Assembly: GCA_035772785.1 (NCBI GenBank) | Contig: JAOCPU010000040.1 | Location: 62,001 to 126,000, forward strand | DNA length: 64,000 nt | Origin: Phlebiopsis flavidoalba | Lineage: Eukaryota; Basidiomycota; Agaricomycetes; Polyporales; Phanerochaetaceae | Direction: 5' to 3' | Shown: in pieces, positions 46,003 to 64,000 of the stretch | Position numbering within the stretch: position 1 is the stretch's first letter | Layout: each line of letters starts with the position of its first letter | Made by a program: the position numbers and the translations under genes | The notes under the pieces: generated by a model | Databases searched by the model: none | The model's input: the letters and a program-made list of their open reading frames with translations, nothing else | What the model was told of the DNA's origin: nothing

Positions 46003-49000
46003 TCATTGTGTGTAGTTCGGCAAGCCGTTTTTCGACTCCTCAGCTTCCTCGTGCACCGTCGAAGGCACCTTCTTCCGCCGTATTGTCCGGACTGATCGAG
46101 TGCAGGATGGATTTTCGACGATTGGGCTGCGACGTCCCAGAGAGGTTGCAGAGAGGTTCTGCAGTCGCCGCAGCGCGACACCGGGCTCCTCCATCGAGAA
46201 GTCGAAGCCCGTGCCGCGTGAACGCACGCCCGTCGCGAGGTCTATCCGGCTGCCTTGTGGTGGCCACGGTGGATGATGGACTTGCGCTTCACGCCGCGGC
46301 TGGTGCTGACGGCGCGCTTGATGTACGCAACACCTCCCGCTTCGCGATCCCTGCGGAAGTCGTGGTCGGGCTGGATCTTGTGCAGATAGCGCACACGGTC
46401 GATGTCGGATGGATGGAAAATGAACTTGTACGCCTTGCAGAGGAGCCTTGGAAGGAGCGCCAGGGGGACCATGAAGAAAACGCCGAACCAGAAGTATGCC
46501 GAGTGGAATAAATATTGGTTGTTTCCATAGATGGGTGTGGGGAACCAGCTCGGTCTGATTGCGGAGTAGAACGGCCTGAAAGTAGAACGTTAGTATACAT
46601 CTACCCATCCGAGCAGTACATCACGGTACAGTGTATAACCCAGATGAGAACAATCTCAATTCCCACAGACCCACCAGAACCCAGCTTGTCCAGGTAAGTG
46701 ATGTTTCATTCCGACAAAGACAGTGACAATCATGACGGCACCAATAGCCATAACCTGGACGATTATCATAAAGGGGTTCCTACGCAACGAAACACCGTTG
46801 GAGCGTACCGTAGACAGCTCGTACAGATATACGTCGTATCCGTTCCGTACGGTGAGAGGTTGGGCGTGATGTAGGCGTACAAGATGAAGAAGAATATGAT
46901 GACCGACTGGAATGTTGTGTCAATAAATGCCGCAAAAGCACAACAAAGAGATTGCTCAGGATCTGGTAAGCACCGTCTATGATGTAGATCAAGAACAGCT
47001 TGAGGTTGAAGTACGCTCCATTGCGCGAGTGCTTGTACAACTCAGGGGCAAGTCCATGAGGACGTGATCGTCGGCAATACGGTCGAAAGAGGGACCCATG
47101 GCGATGACAGGAAGGATAGTCCAGAAGGAGTTCCAGAACAGGACGGGGGTAGGTGTACTCGAAAACGCTTTGGGGACTGTCAGCTTCGTGTAAGGATAGA
47201 AAGCCTGTACCAGTATCAACGTGAGGAGGTTCTATTGACTGCGAGCTCCAATGTTTTTGGAACACAGTAGATCTGGTACCACCATAGTACACGATACACA
47301 CAATGTTCTTGTAGAAGAAGTTGACGATCATGTTACCGTTGCGGGAGTATGACCAGTGGCCGTGGACGAGCAATAACCGCTTCAAGGAACCGGAACTGGA
47401 ACCAAAGGTCAAACTCGGCATGTCTTGAGATGAAAGGAGGTAAACGCACCTGTGCGATTGCGTAGTCCGACGAGTTGACAGCCTGCAGACCCTCCTCACC
47501 AGAGATACCGACACCAACGTCCGCAGCCTGAATCATGCTGACATCGTTGGCACCGTCAACGATAGCGAGCGTCATTGACATCGAGCCCTTCCTTGACGAG
47601 TTTGACGATGAGGGCCTTCTGGAGCGGCGAGACACGACAACAGATGACACCCTCGCACTGCATAGCCAAGCGCAGGAGAAGCTGCTTGTGGCTCTCATCT
47701 GCAAGGGCCTCGAGGAGCGCAGCACCGTCGATGACGAGAACGTATCCGCCCGGCCGACTGCCGTTGTTCTGTCCGACAATGTCCGTGATCTGCCAGTGTT
47801 GACGCGCTGCAGGGGCGTACGCGCCGTTCGGGTGTTTGCCGTCCGTCTTGAAGCTGGTTCGCGATGCCGTCTTCCTGGAGGATGCCGCTCGCAGGGAAGA
47901 ACTCGTCGACGGCACCCGCCATCTGCGCGTAGACGGGGCGGCCAGAGTCGGCGAGGCGCCGCGGATGATGATGATGTTGTCGTTGCGTCCGATGAGGTTC
48001 GTGCTGTGACCGATGGCTACAAAACATGTGAGCAACGCGTCTGCAAAGTCTGCGGAGAGACATACCGATGGCGGTTTCGAGCTTGTCGCCGGTGGCGACC
48101 CAGATCTTGATCCCGGCCTCCTTGAGATTCAGCGATGGTTTCTGGTACGCACCGTCCTGGAGTCTGTCCTCAATGGCAGTCGCACCGAGGAGTCGAAGGT
48201 CCTTCTCGATGAGCTCGTACGCCGCGTCGATCTTGTCCTCCACGGTCCTCGAGGGATACGCTGGCTTCGTGCATGATCTCATTCCATTCCTCGTATTCCT
48301 GGTCTATATAAATTGTTAGCATGGAGTAAAGAATGAGCGGCAGCTCCACTTACCAGAGACACGCCTCCAAGCTAATGTCAACGTCCGCAACCCTTCGCTC
48401 GCAAAGTCAGCCAAATGATCTTCGGTAACATCCTTGAGGTCATCATTCCCCTCCTTCAACCTCTCGAAGATGACATTATCCGCGCCCGTTGGTAAGGAGC
48501 ATCAAGCCCTTGTCCTCGTCGTCCACCTTGCGCACAATGACACTCATCCGCTTGCGCGCCGAGTTAAACTCGAGCACATTCAAGAGCTCGTAGCGCTCCA
48601 TGCCCTCCGCAAACGGCTGTGCTCACATAGATGACGTCCTTGTCGCGGCCGCGGAACGTGAAGCCGACGTCCGCCGCGGCCTGCACGAGCGCCGCCTCGT
48701 CGGGGCTCTGCGCCTTGTACTCGAGCGCGCCCGTCGCGGGGTCGACCGACGCCAGGACGGTGTGGCAGAGCGCAAGCGTGAGCCGAGAAGCCGTGCAGCG
48801 CGCGCGCTTGCTGGTAGTCCCGCGCGTTCGTGTCCGCGTTCACCGCGGTCGCCTTTCGCGATGTCGCCCGAGAGCACCGAGTCCCTGAACCGCCGGAGCA
48901 CGCCGTTCGCGAGCTTCACTTCCGCGGTGGCGCGTGGGTCGAGCGTTGCGAATTGGTCGACGGACGACGGGTCCGAGCCGGGGACTTTGCGAGGCGAAGC

Positions 49001-51930: not shown

Positions 51931-53600
51931 ATGACCAGGTAAGCACCACTTGTCATTTCCTTGCGAATAGCGGTTAATGCTTACCATGGCTATGTCTCTT
52001 CTAGTCCTCGGAACTACAGTGTGAGGCACGGGCCGTGACGTACGCGAGATAGGCGGGGGGGGGGATGAAAACAAGTGTAACACCGAGACTTGACATGCAA
52101 GGTTTAATGCAACCGTCGTTGTTCTCTGGTATTAGAGAGAAGACTGACCATCGTTACCGAGGGCTGATATACGAGCGCGGCGCACGCACCGTTCGAATCG
52201 GCATTAGGACCGCGGGGCATGGTTCCCGAGTAAGACCTAGAGAAATGACTGGTAAGCACACCACTTAATCTTCGAACGAGACTAAAGCTGAACCTCGAGT
52301 CTTACCTTGTCAGTCCTTGATGAAGGCTCGGTCGCGCTTTCGCCCGCGGGTCGTGGGCGCGAGAATCGATATCTTAAGACCGCGCGCGGGACAGCTACTA
52401 AGACCCGAGAATGACCAAGTAAGCACCAATACAACTCATCCAAAGAATGCAATACTTACCTCTCGTCCGTCTCTGTTAGTTTGGTCCCTCCCGCGCATTT
52501 TGCGCCCGTGAGCACTCGAACACCGCCACCTTTGATGTCTCGACCGCGCCGCTCCACATTTCCCCCTCGCCCGCCGGTCGTTTCACTGGCCCCAGCAGCA
52601 CCCATCCCGCCGCAAAGACGTCTCAGTGGCTCCGCGTCGGCCCCAGGAAAGCCTCGCTCGCGGGAACGCGATCCTGTAGGTGTCTCATCAAGATCAAATA
52701 GACGTCCCCGCCCCACGGTGAGGGCACTCATGTCTTTCGTCAACGACCGAAGCCTCTCGCTTTTCAAGGAACGTCGTTTGGATAGGGAATTGGGAGCTGG
52801 ATTGAAGAGATGTGAAGAAGGGGGAAACAGGGGTGAGTCCTCTGTTTGTCGGTTTCTTTTGCTGGTTCACTAAAGGACAATTGCAGCAGGGCCCCGCGGG
52901 ACACGATGTCGAGCGGCGAAGACATGCTACAAGAGCGTATTCGAGGCCATAGACCACGTCAGAACGACTGAGCGCGGTGACTTGCGCGTCGAGGCCCCGC
53001 TCGCCGGGACGGCGATACAGGCATGGTCTCAGGGTCCAAAATCCCCTCCGCCGACCCGCCGTTCTTCAATCCCCCGGCCCACAAACCTCCCTCTTTCCAC
53101 CACACGACCCAGAAGGAGAAGAAAAGAAACGCCAGCACATGCGTCCCACCGTGTCTTCCACAAACACACGCCGCGACCCCCACCCACAAGAGCCCCAGGC
53201 CGACACGCACACACACACCCCTCAACCCCGCCCCCCACCCCGCCGTCCCACGCCCCACCACTTCAGGAGGCACCTCAAAACACCTCCCCCACACGCCCCA
53301 TCCACGTCCCGCCCCAGCGCGTGCGTCCGCTGCCGCGGGACCGCGATCCGTCGTCTCCCAGCCAAATAGACGCCCACCCTTCGACCGCGGCCGGCGGGCG
53401 CATACACACCCGGGGATGTTGCTCGATGCGACGGGCTGCTTGGAAAATAGCTGTAAGAGATTTGTGGGGCGTGTGCGGACGGGGGAACGGCGTGCGCGAC
53501 GTGTGGTGCCGCATCTCTTGCGCGGGGAGGGGAAGTCCGGCCTTGGATCGCGTCTGGAGGTGCGTTTGTGTGTTCGTTTGGTGCGGCTGTTGCTGACGTA
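51931..53600 (+). other. Intron-like units with similar donor ends; C-rich tract
   Basis: Three plus-strand GT-AG units have near-identical exon ends and donors: GAGATGACCAG|GTAAGCACC (about 51940), GAAATGACTG|GTAAGCACA (about 52252) and GAATGACCAA|GTAAGCACC (about 52420), each ending CTTACC...TAG/CAG 55-65 nt later. This suggests duplicated exon-intron modules. A further unit runs 52835-52888. Exons are open only in pieces (for example RRSTFPPRPPVVSLAPAAPI; LMSFVNDRSLSLFKERRL). From 53060 to 53340 the plus strand is strongly C-rich, making long but compositional open frames. No known protein is recognised. Confidence 0.45.
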
Positions 53601-53867
53601 GCCCCATATAGGTCCTATGCAACGTCTGAGAACACCCGCGAGGCCATCGGACGAGATCGACTTTTAATTTAATTCATGGGGCGGATTTTCGGACGGGCGG
53701 CCGCAGCATATCGGAGGCCTGGGAAATGTGGGGATACGATGGGCGATGCAGGATGTGAAAGTACGAGAAGGCGCGTGCAAATCTCCGGTACCTGGAGCCG
53801 TTTTGGTTAGCGGGGTGGGTCTACGCGCGGGAGGGTCATAACCATAGCTAGGAGCTTGCACGAGGTG

Positions 53868-56990: not shown

Positions 56991-57799
56991 GGAACAGAAA
57001 ATGCAGGTAGGCACAGATGCGCAGAAGATGGGAATCAGGGTGCAAAATGCGAGCCGGGTGATGGAGATTGATGGGATGTTGCGCCGAAGCAAGCGGGACC
57101 ATGAGAAAATGGACACGGCGTCTCGCGTCCTCGCGCTGGCGGTTGGCTCCGGTGACAACTTACGAGAACGCGAGGCGGAAATGAATGTTACGTGCTGGCA
57201 GGGGTACCATCGGGTGCATGTGTCAGCATCGGACACTCCACGAGAATGAGACAAGGTGTCCGAGTCAGAGAGAGGACACTAACCCCTGGTCTCATTCTGA
57301 CTGTGAGGAGCATTATTAGCTCACAGAGATCTCGAGCGAGTATGCAAAACTATCAGAACTGAGATGACCTGCGATGCGCCGGACTAAGTAGTCTATCACA
57401 AGTTCATCCCGCTGTGCACGAGAGATGTAGACGAAAGGATGCACGGGGGCCCATTAATGATATATTTGACAGCACGTAATATTAAGCAATAATGTATATC
57501 ACACCGACAGTACGTCGCGAAAGAGACGCGGGGGTCAACAATGACCGTCGACCGGTGCGGCTTGGGTATCGCTCGAAACTGGACGACCCAAGACTGAGTC
57601 CGCGAGAACGTACCCGAGATCTTCGATTTACTCGAAAAGGTAGCTTTCTTGATTATCTTGCTTTGATGGCGCCAGATTGCGCCACAAAGGCCAACTTGAC
57701 AGACGCCCTCGCCGCGACTTTGATCTCTCTGCCTCCATCCGCACATGTCAAGGACCTCGACGGCATCACTCAAGCACCTCAGGCGCGTACACAGACTAT

Positions 57800-58032
57800 G
57801 TAAGTGCTGCTGTTATAGTCAAGAAACAACTAACTTTTAATCATGTAGAAATGGGTCCGAGCGCATCGACGGAGTTAACTCGAGACTCGCAGTCTCTTGT
57901 GTGCGAGACACACCCCGCCACTTCCCGCCCACAAGGTGCGAGCCGACGGAGACGCGTCATAAGCGAGGTGAGCGTGTGTAACCTATGACAACCCCAACGG
58001 AACACTTACGAGAGCGACGTGTTCGGCTGCAG
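57800..58032 (+). other. Two further intron-like units upstream of the hairpin array
   Basis: GTAAGTGCTGCTG to AATCATGTAG (57800-57849, with ACTAAC branch-like site) and GTGAGCGTGTG to CGGCTGCAG (about 57966-58032). The intervening exon carries ARTQTM-like and SASTELTRDSQSL-like pieces but no recognised protein. Confidence 0.4.
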
Positions 58033-58368
58033 ACGCGGAACTCGCGCTTTTGGCCCTAGCCACCATTCGACGCGAATGCCCTTCGCGTAAAAGGATACTT
58101 CGGTTGGGCGGTGGCTGGTGCCCGCTCAGACGCTCACCCACGGGTGCCTCAAGAAGATGGGATCAAAAAACACCCCATTTCGTCGTATTCACGGAATCGC
58201 GCGAACTGAGACCGAGTACACACCTCGGCCTCAGGCCTCGGTTCCGTTCCTCACGACGGACGGCGATGCAATGGCCCGGACGGCGTGTGACGTGGCAGCG
58301 CAAACGAAAACGATGGTGGTGAGAAATCCGAGAGTACGGCACACCGCGCGAAACGCGAGCCGGTGGGG

Positions 58369-58444
58369 TATAAAGGAGGAGGAGAGGATGGCTCAACACC
58401 ACATCCCTCCTCCTCCTCCTCCCTCCTCCTCTTCTCCCTCTTCC
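58369..58444 (+). promoter_or_regulatory. TATA box and pyrimidine-rich start region
   Basis: TATAAA at 58369-58374 in the context GGGGTATAAAGG is followed after about 30 bases by an almost pure C/T tract (58405-58444). TATA plus CT-block is the classic layout of strong filamentous-fungal promoters. The first intron donor of the hairpin array lies 140 bases further on, so this would drive that locus. Confidence 0.6.
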
Positions 58445-61400
58445 ACACACTCGAACCACTCCCCTGCGCCCCTTCATTTCACTCCCACCAATGGCGCGCT
58501 CTAATCCGCGTTCGCCCCAAAACCGCCATCTGCCGCATTCACCGCTTTCGACGCAGCTCGCCGTCTAGTACGCAGCACCACGGTAAGCAAATCAACCCCT
58601 CTCGGTTCATTCCATTACTTACTATTGTTTACTTTCAGGTAATGTCTAGCACAATCCGTTCAGCTATCCCGTAGCTGGACTTCGACGTGCTCCATGCACC
58701 CCTTCAACTCAAGCGAACGGGGTCTCTCAAATCTTCAGTAAGTTTTACAACGGTACCGGTTCAAACATTTACTTACTCGTAATGACCCTGTCAGAGAATC
58801 CGTTCAACGCGTTACTTACGCGTCGTTCATTCTGATGAACGGCTGCGAGGTGCCCCGTTCAATCACCGAGAAGACTGATTATGGTGATGGAAACAATAAG
58901 TATATCCCCTTCGTCTGATCGTAGTCACGACACGTATTGATTAATTGTATAGTTCGCCTTTCCGATGCGTTGAAGCGCATTGTAGGGTTGCCGGCGAAAA
59001 CGGCTGGCCTTTGGCCCTACGGGTCCTTTGTCTCACACGGCGACCGAGCCGTTTCGCCGTGACACATACGGACACGCGCAGAACTGCCCGCGCAGTCAAG
59101 TAACGCCGCCAAGAAATGTCTGGCACTAACTGTAAGTGTTTCAATGCTGTTTCGTCACAAAGCTAATGTCTGTGCTATTCTTCTACAGGTTGGTTACACC
59201 TCATTACAATGCGCTGAAGCGCATTGTAGGGTTGCCGGCAAGACAACCGGCCAGTCAGTTACACACACAGACGTCGCTCTGTGCATTCGGTAAGTCAGCT
59301 GTACATTGTCGTTACCAGGCCATACTAATCTACGTGGCAGGTCTATGCACGCAGCGGTGTGTGCCCCTTCGCTGGCCTTGCTACCACAAGTAAACCTGCA
59401 TCGAACGTAAGTGTTTCAATGTCCGTTCATTGCAATGACGTGCTAACGTGCGAAAATACCTTATAGATTATTGACAAACTGTTACAATGCTTTGAAGCGC
59501 ATTGTAGGGTTGCCGGCGAGAACAGATAGCCGCGTCTCGTGAACGAGACGGCTGGCCTGATGTCATAAGACGGCTGACGGGTTAGTTACACGCACAGACG
59601 TCGTTCTGTGCATTCGGTAAGTCAACGGTACATTTTCGTTACTAGGCTATACTAATCTCCATGGCAAGTCTACGCACGCAGCGCACGCCCCTTCGCTGGC
59701 CCGCACCACAAGCGAACCTGCATCGAACGTAAGTGTTTCGATTTACGTTTATTGCAATGACGTGCTAACGCGTGGAACGTACTTTTATAGATCATTTACG
59801 AGCCGTTACAATGCTTCGAAGCGCATTGTAGGGTTGCCCGGCGAGAAAGGATAGCCGTGTCTCGTGAACGGGACGGCTGGCCCGACCCCATAAGTACCGC
59901 GACACCAACGAACGTACGCGGGACCATAAGCTCACCCCTGGCAGAGTGTCCCACACTACATGTAAGTACAGGAACATTAAATTCGCGTCAGTGCGACGAA
60001 TATAACCTGTGTCTATAGATTCATTAATCGTCGATGTGATCTCCCGAAGCGCATTGTAGGGTTGCCGGTAAGACGGCTAACCCTTCGGGCTCAAAAAGGG
60101 AGACACACGCTGAGCCGTGTGCCCACACCATCAAACCTTGAGCTGACCGTGTGCAAGTAAAAAGCGGAGCTGCGTCACCAGTAAGTATGAGTGCTACCCA
60201 TTCATTGCGATAACATGCTCATGTCTTGAATAAGTCCATTGACTCACCATTATAATGCGTCGAAGCGCATTGTAGGGTTGCCGGCATAAGCAGCCGGTAA
60301 CGGGCTCGACGATTTCATCTTACGCGACGGCCGGATGGTTACACTGCGACGCTAGTACCTGTACTCGCTTTTGACCCCAGAGCCGTAGAGTCGTTCTCTA
60401 CAGAGTCTTCTATGCCACGCGTAAGTGCAACACCCATTATCACCTCATTTCGACGGACTAAACCCATGTTGTGTTTGTACAGATTTGTTTAATTGTCGGT
60501 GGGGGTGGGGGACGTCTCGAAGCGCATTGTAGGGTTGCCGGCATGACGGCTGACCCGCGTGATCAGTAAGTCATTAGCGCGTTCTCATTACTGCGTCATA
60601 CTAATTTACATTGTAAGTGAATCAACACAGCGGCCCGCCCGCTTCGTTGGCTTGCATCACCACGACTAAGCCTATATCAAAGGTAAGTGCTCTTGAAATG
60701 CTCGCGTCGCAGTCCGCCGTGATAACGTGCTGACACCCCGTTTGTGTAGGTTGTGGCCGAGCCTTCACAGTGCCTGGAAGCGCATTGTAGGGTTGCCGGC
60801 AAGAACGGCCGGCTATATCCCTCAAATGCAATACCTAGGCCCTTCTCTCGGCGTGGCGGCCGCGGTAACGCTAACGAGGGTGCGCGGAGCCTATGCTCTC
60901 CCCCAGACGAGATAGTCTACACCATGCGTAAGTGCTTCGATCTTATCTCTACATGAGTCTCATCATACTGACCTGTTTTTACAGATTCCTTGTTCGCATT
61001 TTTGTATCTTGAAGCGCATTGTAGGGTTGCCGGTGAAGACGGCGAACCCTTCATTGTGTAGGTCCACGCCGTCAGGCCTTGAGCCAACCATTGACGCGTG
61101 GAGCTGAAACAACGGTATGTATTTAACATATCCGTTTACTATTGTGATGATGTGCTCACAGTTCGCTCAGTCCATTGGCTTGCCGTCACAGTGCGTCGAC
61201 GCGCATTTGTAGGGTTGCCGGAGAGACGGCAAACCTTTCCTTCAAGAATGTAATTGCACTAGGTAAGCCTAATCATTGGAACCATAAGATGTAATCACTC
61301 AGCACTGACCTTGGTTTGCTCTAGATTTCGCTTTTGCGTGTGCGCTGCGCCCGTTCATGACGGGTGTTGTTATTCCTGCATGTCCAGTAAGTCCATCGCG

Positions 61401-61730
61401 AGACATTGGTCTTGGAAATGCTAACCTGGTCTTCATTACATTAGATCGCAGTCGTCTCGGAACGCGACATGCCCATTGGCGTCGGTACACGTCGTTCGAC
61501 GTGAGACGAGCCCGTTCGGTGAGTCCGCAATTGCACTCATTGTTTGCGCGCGGGGTCTAACCAATTTCACTCCCAGTCATTACTCCATGGCCGCCGTCTG
61601 TCGTTGCGCGTGTCGCCACTCGTAAGCCGTGTATGAGCCAAAGCGACATGTCGATTGACAGGTGAGTCGGCATTGTATTAATGCGATCGCTTCGGTATGT
61701 ATTAACCCCTGCGCGGTCGTCCAGCTCCTC
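58445..61730 (+). ncRNA. Candidate multi-intron structured RNA locus with ten hairpin exons
   Basis: About 19 plus-strand introns of 51-67 nt lie in 3.2 kb: 58583-58638, 58738-58794, one ending 58952 with a damaged donor, 59132-59188, 59290-59340, 59407-59466, 59617-59668, 59729-59790, 59962-60018, 60181-60234, 60421-60482, 60566-60617, 60683-60749, 60928-60984, 61115-61170, 61263-61324, 61387-61444, 61519-61576, 61662-61724. Most have CTAAC, CTAAT or CTGAC near the 3' end. Exons are about 60-190 nt. The first ATG in good context (CACCAATGGCG, 58491) opens only 25 codons (MARSNPRSPQNRHLP...) and stops before the first intron; exons 2 and 3 have stops in all frames. The conserved exon core (see repeat entry) is preserved at the nucleotide level while the frame around it is not. 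Non-coding nature is an inference; a rapidly evolving coding gene hidden by indels is the alternative. Confidence 0.55.
58952..61245 (+). repeat. Array of ten 20-nt cores GCGCATTGTAGGGTTGCCGG with hairpin flanks
   Basis: Cores start at 58975, 59219, 59497, 59821 (one extra C), 60049, 60265, 60522, 60780, 61014 and 61201 (one extra T). Spacing is 187-324 bases. Outside the core, sequence diverges except for short flanks. Upstream, arms such as TACAATGCGC (59206) pair with GCGCATTGTA in the core around a TGAA loop. Downstream, GGGTTGCCG pairs with CGGC-N-AACCC or CGGC-N-GGCCT in different copies. The spacing is irregular and the copies sit in exons, so this is not a satellite and not a CRISPR array. 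Confidence 0.9.
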
Positions 61731-63450
61731 GCCCGTCCAATGAGTGGTCGCCGTCGCCGCGCACTCATGGAGCCCGTCAGTGCCATGCGACGTTCCGTGT
61801 GACGGGGCGCCGTCTCCTCATCTCGCCGTCTCGCTCAATGAGCACGCCCGCCCCTCGCCCCGAATCTCGATCGACGACGACGACGAAACGAGACGTGACT
61901 TTAAATGCACCTCTCGCGCTTTATATAAAATCTATTTATTATGTCGCGCAGGTATATGTACAGGTTTCAATTTGTAGTAATAGCTTTGTACTACATCATA
62001 AGGCATTCGAGGGAGGCGGCATCGACTAACCAAATGAATATATCAGACACTTACCAATGCCCCAGTGAGGGCCGGGTTGAACAAGCATCCCCGCCGGCTC
62101 ACAGTGTCAGCCGTGGCGCTACACGCCCCGCCGTGCGCCCGTGTCTATTTGCTGCGGGTGGTTACGTTCGAGTGCGTTGACCTCACGGCTGGTGTGTGCC
62201 GCTCGTGACGCCGTCGCCGTCTCGCAGCCTGTCGATGAGTACGTTGAACTGTTGACGCACGACGAGTAACTAGATAAATAATAAAGTAAGCAGAAACCAA
62301 CCCTAGTAGATGTTGATGATGTACTTATCTGGATTAACAGGCCTCGTTGCGCACTCATGCGCCGTGTCTTTGGTGCGACGTGACGTGACCCTGTAGCCTG
62401 CGTTGACTTCGCGTGAGTAACTGTTGCCTTCTGTTATTGTTGCGTTGGGATGACGTATCGCACACAGCGCAGCACCACGGCGACTCGTCCCTCGTAGGTC
62501 GGCCGCATGTGCACCTTATCTATCCGTCAGCGTCGGCTGGTTGTCGCGTCGTCGATGGGGCTCACCTCCATGGTCATGCCGTTGTAGGTCTCTCTCTGTG
62601 CCTATGTTCTTAGTCTGCTAATGTGCCGTGTAGTGCCCGACGTAAGCGGCGCACGGCTGTGGTCGGCGACGTCCGTGCCGCGGTACACCCCATGTACTCG
62701 TTCGCTGTCCTGGTCCTATGGTGCGTTTTGCCTGTTCTCTTGGTTCAGCGTTCGCTGACGTCCGCACTGGTGTGCTGGCGGTGCCCCTTGATAGATACAG
62801 GGCGACCTGCCCCTCAAGCGAGCCGTGCGGCGTGCAGTCCGAACCATGGACGCTCTCGCCCCACGTCGCAGCGCGTCGATGCAGCGCGTCGATGCGCCGC
62901 GTCTCGTCAATGTACGGTGAGTCGCGTCCGTGACGACGCAAGCCTCACTGACGCGTCCCCCCGTCGTCGTTGATGTTCCCGGGGCATGCGCACGACGCAG
63001 CCCGCCGCCGGGTACGTCTGCGTCTGCTTTCGTTTCGTCTCGTTACTGACTGGACACACAAGGGGGGACGGTGTACGATCCGCCTGTGCTCGTGCTCACC
63101 CACACCGTGGGAGACGCTGCACGACGCCGACCGTCGCATTCTCGGTGAGTTGCCTTGGTCCCTGCTGCTCGTATTCGGCTCGCCTCGCTAAACGGGCATC
63201 GACAGGGCCGTGCGCGACAATGGCTCTTCGTGCCTGCCCGCACCATCCAAGACAAGCGCGACGCCGGCCGTTGCGCTTGCACGGTGAGTTCGTGGGTCTT
63301 GTTCTTCCTCTTAATCAATGTCACAGGGCTTCCGCGCACGACGTTTGTGCGAGACCGTCGCCTCCTTGCGGTGGTCGACGCCTTGATGTAGTCGCGCCGC
63401 CCGTCTTCTTCGACCCCGTCGGTGCGTGCTCGTGTCCCATTCGCCGCGAC
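61731..63450 (+). other. Continuation of intron-like tract, GC-rich, no known protein
   Basis: Further GT-AG units occur (about 63145-63206 and 63281-63327). A TTTATATAAAATC box at 61920 could be a promoter or an AT-rich 3' end signal. An AT-rich patch (61905-62060) separates it from the array. Long open frames (for example 62986-63864) are compositional. Nothing is recognised. Confidence 0.35.
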
Positions 63451-63707
63451 CCGCGTGAACGACCGTCTCGTCTACAACTTGCCACCGCGGCCTTGGGTAG
63501 CAAACCGACGCCGCGAGATCTACACAGTCGTCAGTTCAAAGTCCTGTCGTTAATAGTAAAAGACTTGCGCACCATTGAATACCCCCAACCCAAAGCGCCG
63601 CCGTGGTATGAACACGCGCGACGGCGGGAGCGTCCGACGTTTGAGCTCTTCAGCGTGACTCTCGATCTCGCCCGCCAAGCTCCGCCACGCACGCGACACT
63701 CTCGTCC

Positions 63708-64000
63708 GTCGCGGCCGCGGAACGTGAAGCCGACGTCCGCCGCGGCCTGCACGAGCGCCGCCTCGTCGGGGCTCTGCGCCTTGTACTCGAGCGCGCCCGT
63801 CGCAGGGGTCGCGTCGACACGACGCCAGGACTTGGACACCACTTGTGGCAGAGCGCAAGCGTGAGCCAGAAGCCGTTGCAGCGCGCGCGCCTGCCCGTAG
63901 TCGCGCGCGTTCGTGTCCGCGTTCACCGCGGTCGCCTTCGCGATGTCGCCCGAGAGCACCGAGTCCCTGAAACCGCCGGAGCACAGCCGTTCGCGAGCTT
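63708..64000 (-). pseudogene. Partial second copy of the P4-ATPase nucleotide-binding region
   Basis: From 63708 to the window end the sequence repeats 48642-48918 of the P4-ATPase gene in the same orientation, differing by scattered indels and a few substitutions. The minus-strand translation contains [20 protein letters not shown] and VGFTFRGRD, the P4 N-domain motif, and upstream MLSGDIAKA. Homology stops abruptly at GTCGCGGCCGCGG (63708); beyond it the frame runs into unrelated sequence (GRECRVRGGAWR), where the main copy continues into KDVIYV. So the 3' part of the gene is missing here and the 5' part would lie past base 64000. It may be a truncated segmental duplicate, or a haplotype or assembly join. 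Confidence 0.8.

Follow-up and report, generated by a model that had tools for sequence, protein, structure and literature searches.

Intron-dense, putatively non-coding RNA genes of Phlebiopsis flavidoalba with repeated exonic sites antisense to a cyclin gene

Long non-coding RNAs (lncRNAs) can work through short motifs, as in NORAD, whose repeats bind Pumilio protein, and TINCR, whose box pairs with many messenger RNAs (mRNAs). The HBII-52 box C/D small nucleolar RNAs (snoRNAs) are of intronic origin. HBII-52/SNORD115 exists in many copies with a conserved antisense element of ~18 nt (primates, rodents) directed to one receptor transcript, as outlined in PMC4063771. Among fungi, passages of the literature describe non-coding, intron-rich host genes in Neurospora with the snoRNA mostly in an intron (PMC2780460), the Ustilago maydis non-coding RNAs ncrna1 and as-um02151, which are complementary to mRNA (PMC8113380), and lncRNAs of C. 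puteana and S. lacrymans, of which 60-65% have a single exon and 20-25% two exons (PMC6525899). Here we report an intron-dense locus of the basidiomycete Phlebiopsis flavidoalba (58365-61960, forward strand) in a window of 64,000 nucleotides (contig JAOCPU010000040.1, here C40:62001-126000), in which a 20-nt core recurs in separate predicted exons and is the exact antisense of part of a cyclin gene on another contig. With moderate confidence, and judging from sequence, we propose that this locus and its relatives produce spliced non-coding antisense RNAs whose exons repeat a site for one cyclin mRNA and which would act on that mRNA in trans, probably as repressors. All comparisons were made within one genome (36.28 Mb, 129 contigs).

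In its mode of working the proposed RNA would come closest to HBII-52/SNORD115, which likewise sets a multi-copy antisense element against one transcript; unlike it, the C40 element is exonic and 20 nt long, and box C/D was not found. The Neurospora plan of intronic snoRNAs is unfit here because the predicted introns are so short. With fungal antisense and trans-acting lncRNAs the locus has complementarity to an mRNA in common, but it differs from them in having nine exact sites in separate exons and its target on another contig, and the passages on such RNAs in PMC8113380 do not mention repeated short sites. Like the lncRNAs of basidiomycete catalogues it is without coding frames, but it has ~20 predicted exons. 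The core is near the guide size of fungal microRNA-like RNAs, and Piwi and RNA-dependent RNA polymerase (RdRP) domains are present in the genome, but the C40 core does not lie in one hairpin arm. NORAD and TINCR are alike in being lncRNAs with repeated short functional motifs. The titles, abstract beginnings and selected passages of the literature that were searched hold no account of such an antisense-array family.

Complementarity of the core to a cyclin gene

The core, AAGCGCATTGTAGGGTTGCC, is exact at nine sites of C40, each within a separate predicted exon. It has a match at C2:1501049 on the reverse strand, inside a coding gene on the opposite strand. This gene encodes a pas1/Pcl5-like cyclin, and the core is exactly antisense to its codons 22-28 (WQPYNAL), whose sense strand, GGCAACCCTACAATGCGCTT, lies at L014:3052-3071. 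An antisense site at the cyclin start codon itself was considered and rejected, since homologues put the start at L014:2988, MHAISHSLAHRGPGASRARSRWQPYNALNQ (tblastn with P0009, the closest homologue, of 639 aa and with source label lgn). The cyclin query gave three matches in the genome, all at one locus. The name of the gene rests mainly on the annotation of relatives, whose source names include 'G1/S-specific cyclin pas1' and 'PHO85 cyclin-5' and the best named of which include Phanerochaete, Hermanssonia and Irpex proteins, because the Pfam Cyclin domain (PF08613) is weak, with P0009 just under the cut-off and P0012 at the cut-off, and no match was returned by NCBIfam for two cyclin homologues or by a PDB sequence search for one. 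Of the 120 homologues listed, 68 have the peptide RWQPY within their first 60 residues; among the 67 that have the N-terminus by a simple motif the number is 65, and many of the other listed homologues are without this N-terminus. Since RWQPY is conserved among the cyclin homologues, the cyclin and not the RNA is the older owner of the sequence.

When the spliced C40 RNA was compared with the cyclin region, nine complementary runs of 20 nt and one of 13 nt fell at this site, and runs elsewhere did not exceed 12 nt; the longest complementary run among 300 window segments used as control was 15, and that of the core-less relatives C1 and C123 was 12. At further loci of the family the match with the cyclin extends over 25 nt (C2a and C72b_3), 24 nt (C72b_1) and 19 nt (C72b_2). 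By arithmetic, the chance expectation of an exact match in a 36.3-Mb genome, on two strands, is ~7e-5 for 20 nt and ~6e-8 for 25 nt. A genome scan with the 20-mer GCGCATTGTAGGGTTGCCGG, allowing up to 3 mismatches, gave 30 matches against 0 for the reversed control, and this is the unbiased figure because the units compared below were chosen by their resemblance to the core.

Of 25 units that entered the comparison, seven from C9, C29, C96 and C39 were excluded because they were decayed or mere fragments, and the 4-mismatch limit was exceeded by C40_10 and by two C9 units with indels; the set used consists of nine units from C40, five from C72a, three from C72b and one from C2a. Aligned without gaps to the cyclin antisense, all 18 match it at positions 0-18 and 16 at position 19, while identity over the 25 nt from -30 to -6 is 0.24, so that the match has sharp limits. 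It also survives amid unrelated flanks: compared with the C40/C72a group, C72b and C2a have a core identity of 0.97-1.00 and a flank identity of 0.17-0.32 (56 unit pairs). C72b and C2a are alike just 5' of the core (TGATT) and match the cyclin there too. The contrast between core and flanks points to complementarity kept by selection within this genome. For the nine exact cores the predicted duplexes with the cyclin range from -47 to -53 kcal/mol, for the damaged tenth the value is -42.5, and the gain on cofolding exceeds that of 30/30 core shuffles at each of 9 units. On the cyclin side, 12 of the 20 bases of the site are unpaired in the minimum-energy fold of a 121-nt RNA piece (z of the piece -3.6), and a perfect 11-bp hairpin in the coding region (L014:3021-3047) ends four bases before the antisense site.

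The core stands near the beginning of its exon. From exon start to core start there are 20, 28, 28, 28, 28, 28, 37, 28 and 27 nt in C40, 28, 32, 28, 34 and 30 nt in C72a, 21, 23 and 21 nt in C72b, and 27 nt in C2a; in 18/18 units the core thus lies 20-37 nt past a predicted 3' splice site, the acceptors outside C40 having been placed by eye. This position may reflect common descent or a rule.

Gene architecture and family members

Within the locus TATAAA (58369-58374) precedes a CT-rich stretch, followed by ~19 predicted introns and no long frame (Table 1). Introns were sought by simple donor, branch and acceptor scoring of 58381-61760, with 60 dinucleotide Markov resamplings as control. At a score of at least 13 the scan gave 16 introns; the reverse strand gave 4, and the resamplings averaged 1.1 and did not exceed 3. 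Lowering the score to 11 gave 17, with 8 on the reverse strand and a resampling average of 5.5. The list in Table 1 consists of the 16 from the scan, one near the scan edge (61662) and two found by eye (58900 and 60421); the acceptors of 59617 and 60566 were shifted by eye, and a weak candidate at 60117-60164 was left out. All 19 are GT-AG introns of 51-67 nt. The 3' end of the model is tentative because further intron-like sites continue beyond it up to ~63.2 kb. The gene is presumably transcribed and spliced. Several introns toward the 5' end of family loci (for example window 58583-58638 and L068:3900-4340) hold, by eye, ACTTAC, the complement of their own GTAAGT donor.

Once spliced, the 2472-nt model is interrupted by 23, 26 and 33 stops in the three frames; its longest open run is 116 codons, and in 6 of its 20 exons every frame contains a stop. 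Because the assembly may carry indels, as frame changes of the cyclin gene suggest, one such frame test is weak by itself. Pfam gave no match for ten short open reading frames (ORFs), a part of those in the locus. The original prediction, made from the letters of the window, had described about 19 well-formed short introns, a promoter signature in front, ten copies of a 20-nt core and the lack of a continuous reading frame, and these descriptions hold, with nine of the cores exact and the tenth damaged. It knew of no fungal RNA family or protein with this layout. In Rfam, 7 sources gave 0 matches at gathering score (none to an H/ACA or box C/D family); at E <= 1 there were 9 matches, all below gathering score and 8 of them at the CT/GA tract. 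No transfer RNA gene was found with ARAGORN (bacterial code).

Table 1. Features of the C40 locus (window positions) and core-bearing loci elsewhere in the genome.
Feature	Position	Strand	Remarks
Upstream region, conserved, putatively regulatory	57614..58368	+	similarity to C72a
TATA box GTATAAA	58368..58374	+	read in sequence; GGGGTATAAAGGAGGAGGAG identical in C72a
Exon 1, CT-rich leader	58395..58582	+	start inferred from TATA spacing
19-intron region (predicted)	58583..61724	+	scan and eye; some boundaries visible in aligned C72a
Introns 1-5 (predicted)	58583-58638, 58738-58794, 58900-58952, 59132-59188, 59290-59340	+	
Introns 6-10 (predicted)	59407-59466, 59617-59668, 59729-59790, 59962-60018, 60181-60234	+	
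Introns 11-15 (predicted)	60421-60482, 60566-60617, 60683-60749, 60928-60984, 61115-61170	+	
Introns 16-19 (predicted)	61263-61324, 61387-61444, 61519-61576, 61662-61724	+	
Exons 2-3 region	58639..58899	+	two CCGTTCAA copies, 58800 and 58855
Antisense core 1	58973..58992	+	exact AAGCGCATTGTAGGGTTGCC
Antisense core 2	59217..59236	+	exact AAGCGCATTGTAGGGTTGCC
Antisense core 3	59495..59514	+	exact AAGCGCATTGTAGGGTTGCC
Antisense core 4	59819..59838	+	exact AAGCGCATTGTAGGGTTGCC
Antisense core 5	60047..60066	+	exact AAGCGCATTGTAGGGTTGCC
Antisense core 6	60263..60282	+	exact AAGCGCATTGTAGGGTTGCC
Antisense core 7	60520..60539	+	exact AAGCGCATTGTAGGGTTGCC
Antisense core 8	60778..60797	+	exact AAGCGCATTGTAGGGTTGCC
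Antisense core 9	61012..61031	+	exact AAGCGCATTGTAGGGTTGCC
Antisense core 10, damaged	61199..61219	+	one substitution and one inserted T; 13 nt exactly complementary
Last model exon, probable 3' end region (inferred)	61725..61960	+	TATGTAC block common to C72a and C9
Family loci with several cores			C72a five; C72b three; C9 four, damaged; C96 three, AT-rich, decayed
Family loci with a single core			C2a, C29, C39

Besides C40, the core family comprises seven further loci of the same genome. Over 844 bp (57614-58431) C40 and C72a are 71% identical; in the alignment GTGACGTGGCAGC is common to C40, C72a and C9, and a block of the ACGGAATCGCGAACTGAG type is also found at other family loci, the C40 copy having a 2-base insertion. 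With up to 3 mismatches, TTACGGAATCGCGAACTGAG has 7 matches in the genome, against 2 for the reversed control: it is exact three times, in C72a and at the fronts of the intron-rich loci C1 and C123, and occurs with 2 mismatches in C72b and with 3 in C2a. Despite this promoter motif, the core was not seen in the 10 kb fetched of each of C1 and C123. Downstream, window 61741-63537 shares 68-80% identity with C14 and with C2:512 kb; in the 9.9 kb analysed of each, no core at up to 6 mismatches was found. Because upstream and downstream segments are shared with different loci, the loci are best described as modular relatives, some of them decayed. The units of C40 and C72a are, for some units, 80-86% identical by BLAST over 50-86 nt, with ungapped flank identities of 0.33-0.62. 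Core matches with 2-3 mismatches outside the family were recorded in the genome scan on C44, C64, C7, C11, C24, C58 and C81. The core had 0 matches in viral contigs and 1 exact match in prokaryote genomes (a bacterial metagenome-assembled genome), approximately the chance number by arithmetic.

Several further observations concern these loci and the window. Around the promoter and first exons, L068 (C1:3107500-3117400) and L069 (C123:1-10000) are 79% identical over 903 bp; both show intron-like signals on both strands (22 and 18 in L068, 24 and 19 in L069) and carry CCGTTCAA, plus TTGAACGG within introns (by eye). Toward their 5' ends family loci carry CCGTTCAA, with seven copies inside 150 nt of L010 (3262-3411), three in L009 (2419-2517) and zero in L013 and L016. 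An 18-nt promoter block, GGCGTGTGACGTGGCAGC (58282-58299), is exact between C40 and C9 and contains the bZIP-like TGACGTGG. In C9 a long G run lies inside a core unit, which we read as indel-prone assembly or decay, and the minus strand of L070 (C14) has degenerate TTTAGGG-like repeats at ~6290-6040. Window 53327-53773 is 69-87% similar to a segment upstream of the C72a relative (C72:16.1-17.1 kb), which may mean that the duplication took in more of the neighbourhood. Window 63703-64000 is 90% identical to 48635-48916 over 302 nt and is presumably, by its motifs, a piece of a second P4-type ATPase gene. A tested piece of the window had 8 protein matches, including Cytidiella melzeri (68%, 27% of the query) and Phanerochaete sordida (53%, 43%).

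RNA structure and competing readings

In many units of C40 and C72a the two halves of the core can pair with arms on either side, the first half in a stem on the 5' side and the second in a stem on the 3' side. Across 14 C40/C72a units the duplex of stem 1 has a mean of -10.4 against -5.4 for shuffles (minimum -6.7), and that of stem 2 a mean of -10.6 against -8.4 (minimum -9.9). The original prediction had spoken of hairpin exons in a candidate new structured RNA gene, and had offered as its nearest analogy host genes or clusters that would release many small structured RNAs. Of its hairpins a part is borne out, since three of the ten C40 units folded have a z below -2 and one lies above 0. 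The gene indeed looks non-coding and intron-dense and belongs to a multi-locus family, with stem potential above shuffles in those 14 units, but paired changes stayed at the shuffled level: 21 fitted units gave 1 double-change pair and 85.1% of cells paired, against 1.2 and 85.4% for shuffles (slid structures 27-40%), and these counts lean toward the two-stem structure because it was named by hand and the units were chosen. An alignment of 29 rows (28 units and the cyclin site) has a weak consensus fold of -1.46 kcal/mol. By eye, C40_5, C40_7 and C40_9 are without the first stem; C72b_1 keeps a similar one, and C72b_3 and C2a fold differently. The arm ACAATGCG of stem 1 repeats the cyclin's own sense sequence in the manner of a competitor. 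Structure is secondary to linear sequence in this family, the hairpins are not kept family-wide, and the conservation of the core at the nucleotide level is better explained by the antisense match to the cyclin.

The alternative that survives best, although we consider it unlikely, is a small-RNA route, in which the units would be precursors of a 19-21-nt core guide, or the transcripts would feed RdRP and Dicer, with Argonaute acting against the cyclin mRNA. The block common to loci with unrelated flanks is 19-20 nt long with sharp ends, which is guide size, and Piwi and RdRP, the two domains sought for this route, are present in the genome. However, a guide in one arm of a single hairpin, as in microRNA-like RNAs, was not found: the stems, where present, divide the core between two neighbouring hairpins, its halves pairing with opposite flanks, and C72b_3 and C2a deviate in their folds.

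The core could also serve a structured lncRNA as its protein- or RNA-binding element, and the match to the cyclin would then be a relic of its origin with no regulatory meaning. Stem potential above shuffles on both sides of the core and a conservation limited to linear sequence, as for a binding site, speak for this, but the small chance expectations of an exact match outside the family and the fall of that match in a conserved coding segment make it improbable. A telomere-like reading of TAGGGTT and a reading as Pumilio or hnRNP motifs were set aside once the cyclin match was seen. Very improbable, in our view, is a selfish element acting at the DNA level, that is, a mobile or duplicated segment with the 20 bp as recognition site: the copies are dispersed, downstream segments are common to C14 and C2:512 kb, and C9 and C96 hold damaged copies, but the ten short ORFs scanned are without a Pfam match, the C40 and C72a copies are just ~70% alike, and in C40, C72a, C72b and C2a the core keeps to the predicted-intron strand and to its distance from the acceptor. 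That repeated exons of a protein-coding gene, decayed or mis-assembled, underlie the locus is barely credible, even in an assembly that may carry indels: every frame has stops, 6/20 exons have them in all three, and the core is read in different frames (TAG in one) and does not vary at positions where a synonymous change would be allowed. A snoRNA host gene, for which the intron-rich non-coding hosts of Neurospora offer a precedent, can practically be dismissed, as introns of 51-67 nt are below the snoRNA lengths of 73 nt and up in table lines of PMC2780460, and box C is exact in 0/18 units and within one mismatch in 1/18, with a downstream CTGA in 1/18.

Several points weigh against an antisense RNA directed at the cyclin. 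The match ends abruptly, because at position 20 the cyclin base is matched in 0/18 units; the base there is mostly G, so that a G-U pair is still allowed. The full RWQPYNAL is present in just 3 of the 120 homologues listed (P0009, P0118, P0125), and therefore one would look for the complete core in close relatives only, unless it changes along with the cyclin. P. sordida, for instance, has RWQPYTALN in place of the RWQPYNALN of this fungus. The cyclin gene has several frame changes relative to P0009, which we take for assembly indels, and this copy could be damaged. Internal hairpins partly occupy the core in many units. An indirect search for a multi-exon protein product, a weak test, found none at E <= 10 among 12 candidates. 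Finally, an effect on the cyclin could run in either direction, repression being the probable one.

Proposed function and significance

If the antisense reading is right, the intron-dense gene would be transcribed from its TATA-driven promoter and spliced, and the mature RNA would pair in trans with the cyclin mRNA ~60 nt past the start codon. Tandem exonic sites would raise the avidity, chance or dose of pairing, and pairing would lower cyclin output through blocked translation, decay or entry into RNA interference; the half-core hairpins of the C40 and C72a units may gate the sites. More tentatively, the loci may represent a hitherto unrecognized class of regulatory RNA in eukaryotes: spliced lncRNAs with exons that line up exact antisense sites against a single G1 cyclin, encoded by a gene family with a shared promoter, in which RNA dosage would tune entry into the cell cycle. 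Should the cyclin truly be Pcl5-like, the same array, held just as tentatively, could instead serve Gcn4-type control. Yeast Pcl5 acts on Gcn4, and in that case the bZIP-like TGACGTGG of the promoter would be a suggestive link.

We know of no fungal case of an exonic antisense-site array in a spliced lncRNA; if the antisense reading is right, this would be one, aimed at a cell-cycle regulator. The function of an lncRNA family would then be directly testable, because both the target and the pairing rule are named. The finding would also supply a signature by which counterparts may be sought in other mushrooms, namely sequence antisense to the conserved codons that specify RWQPY in pas1-like cyclins.

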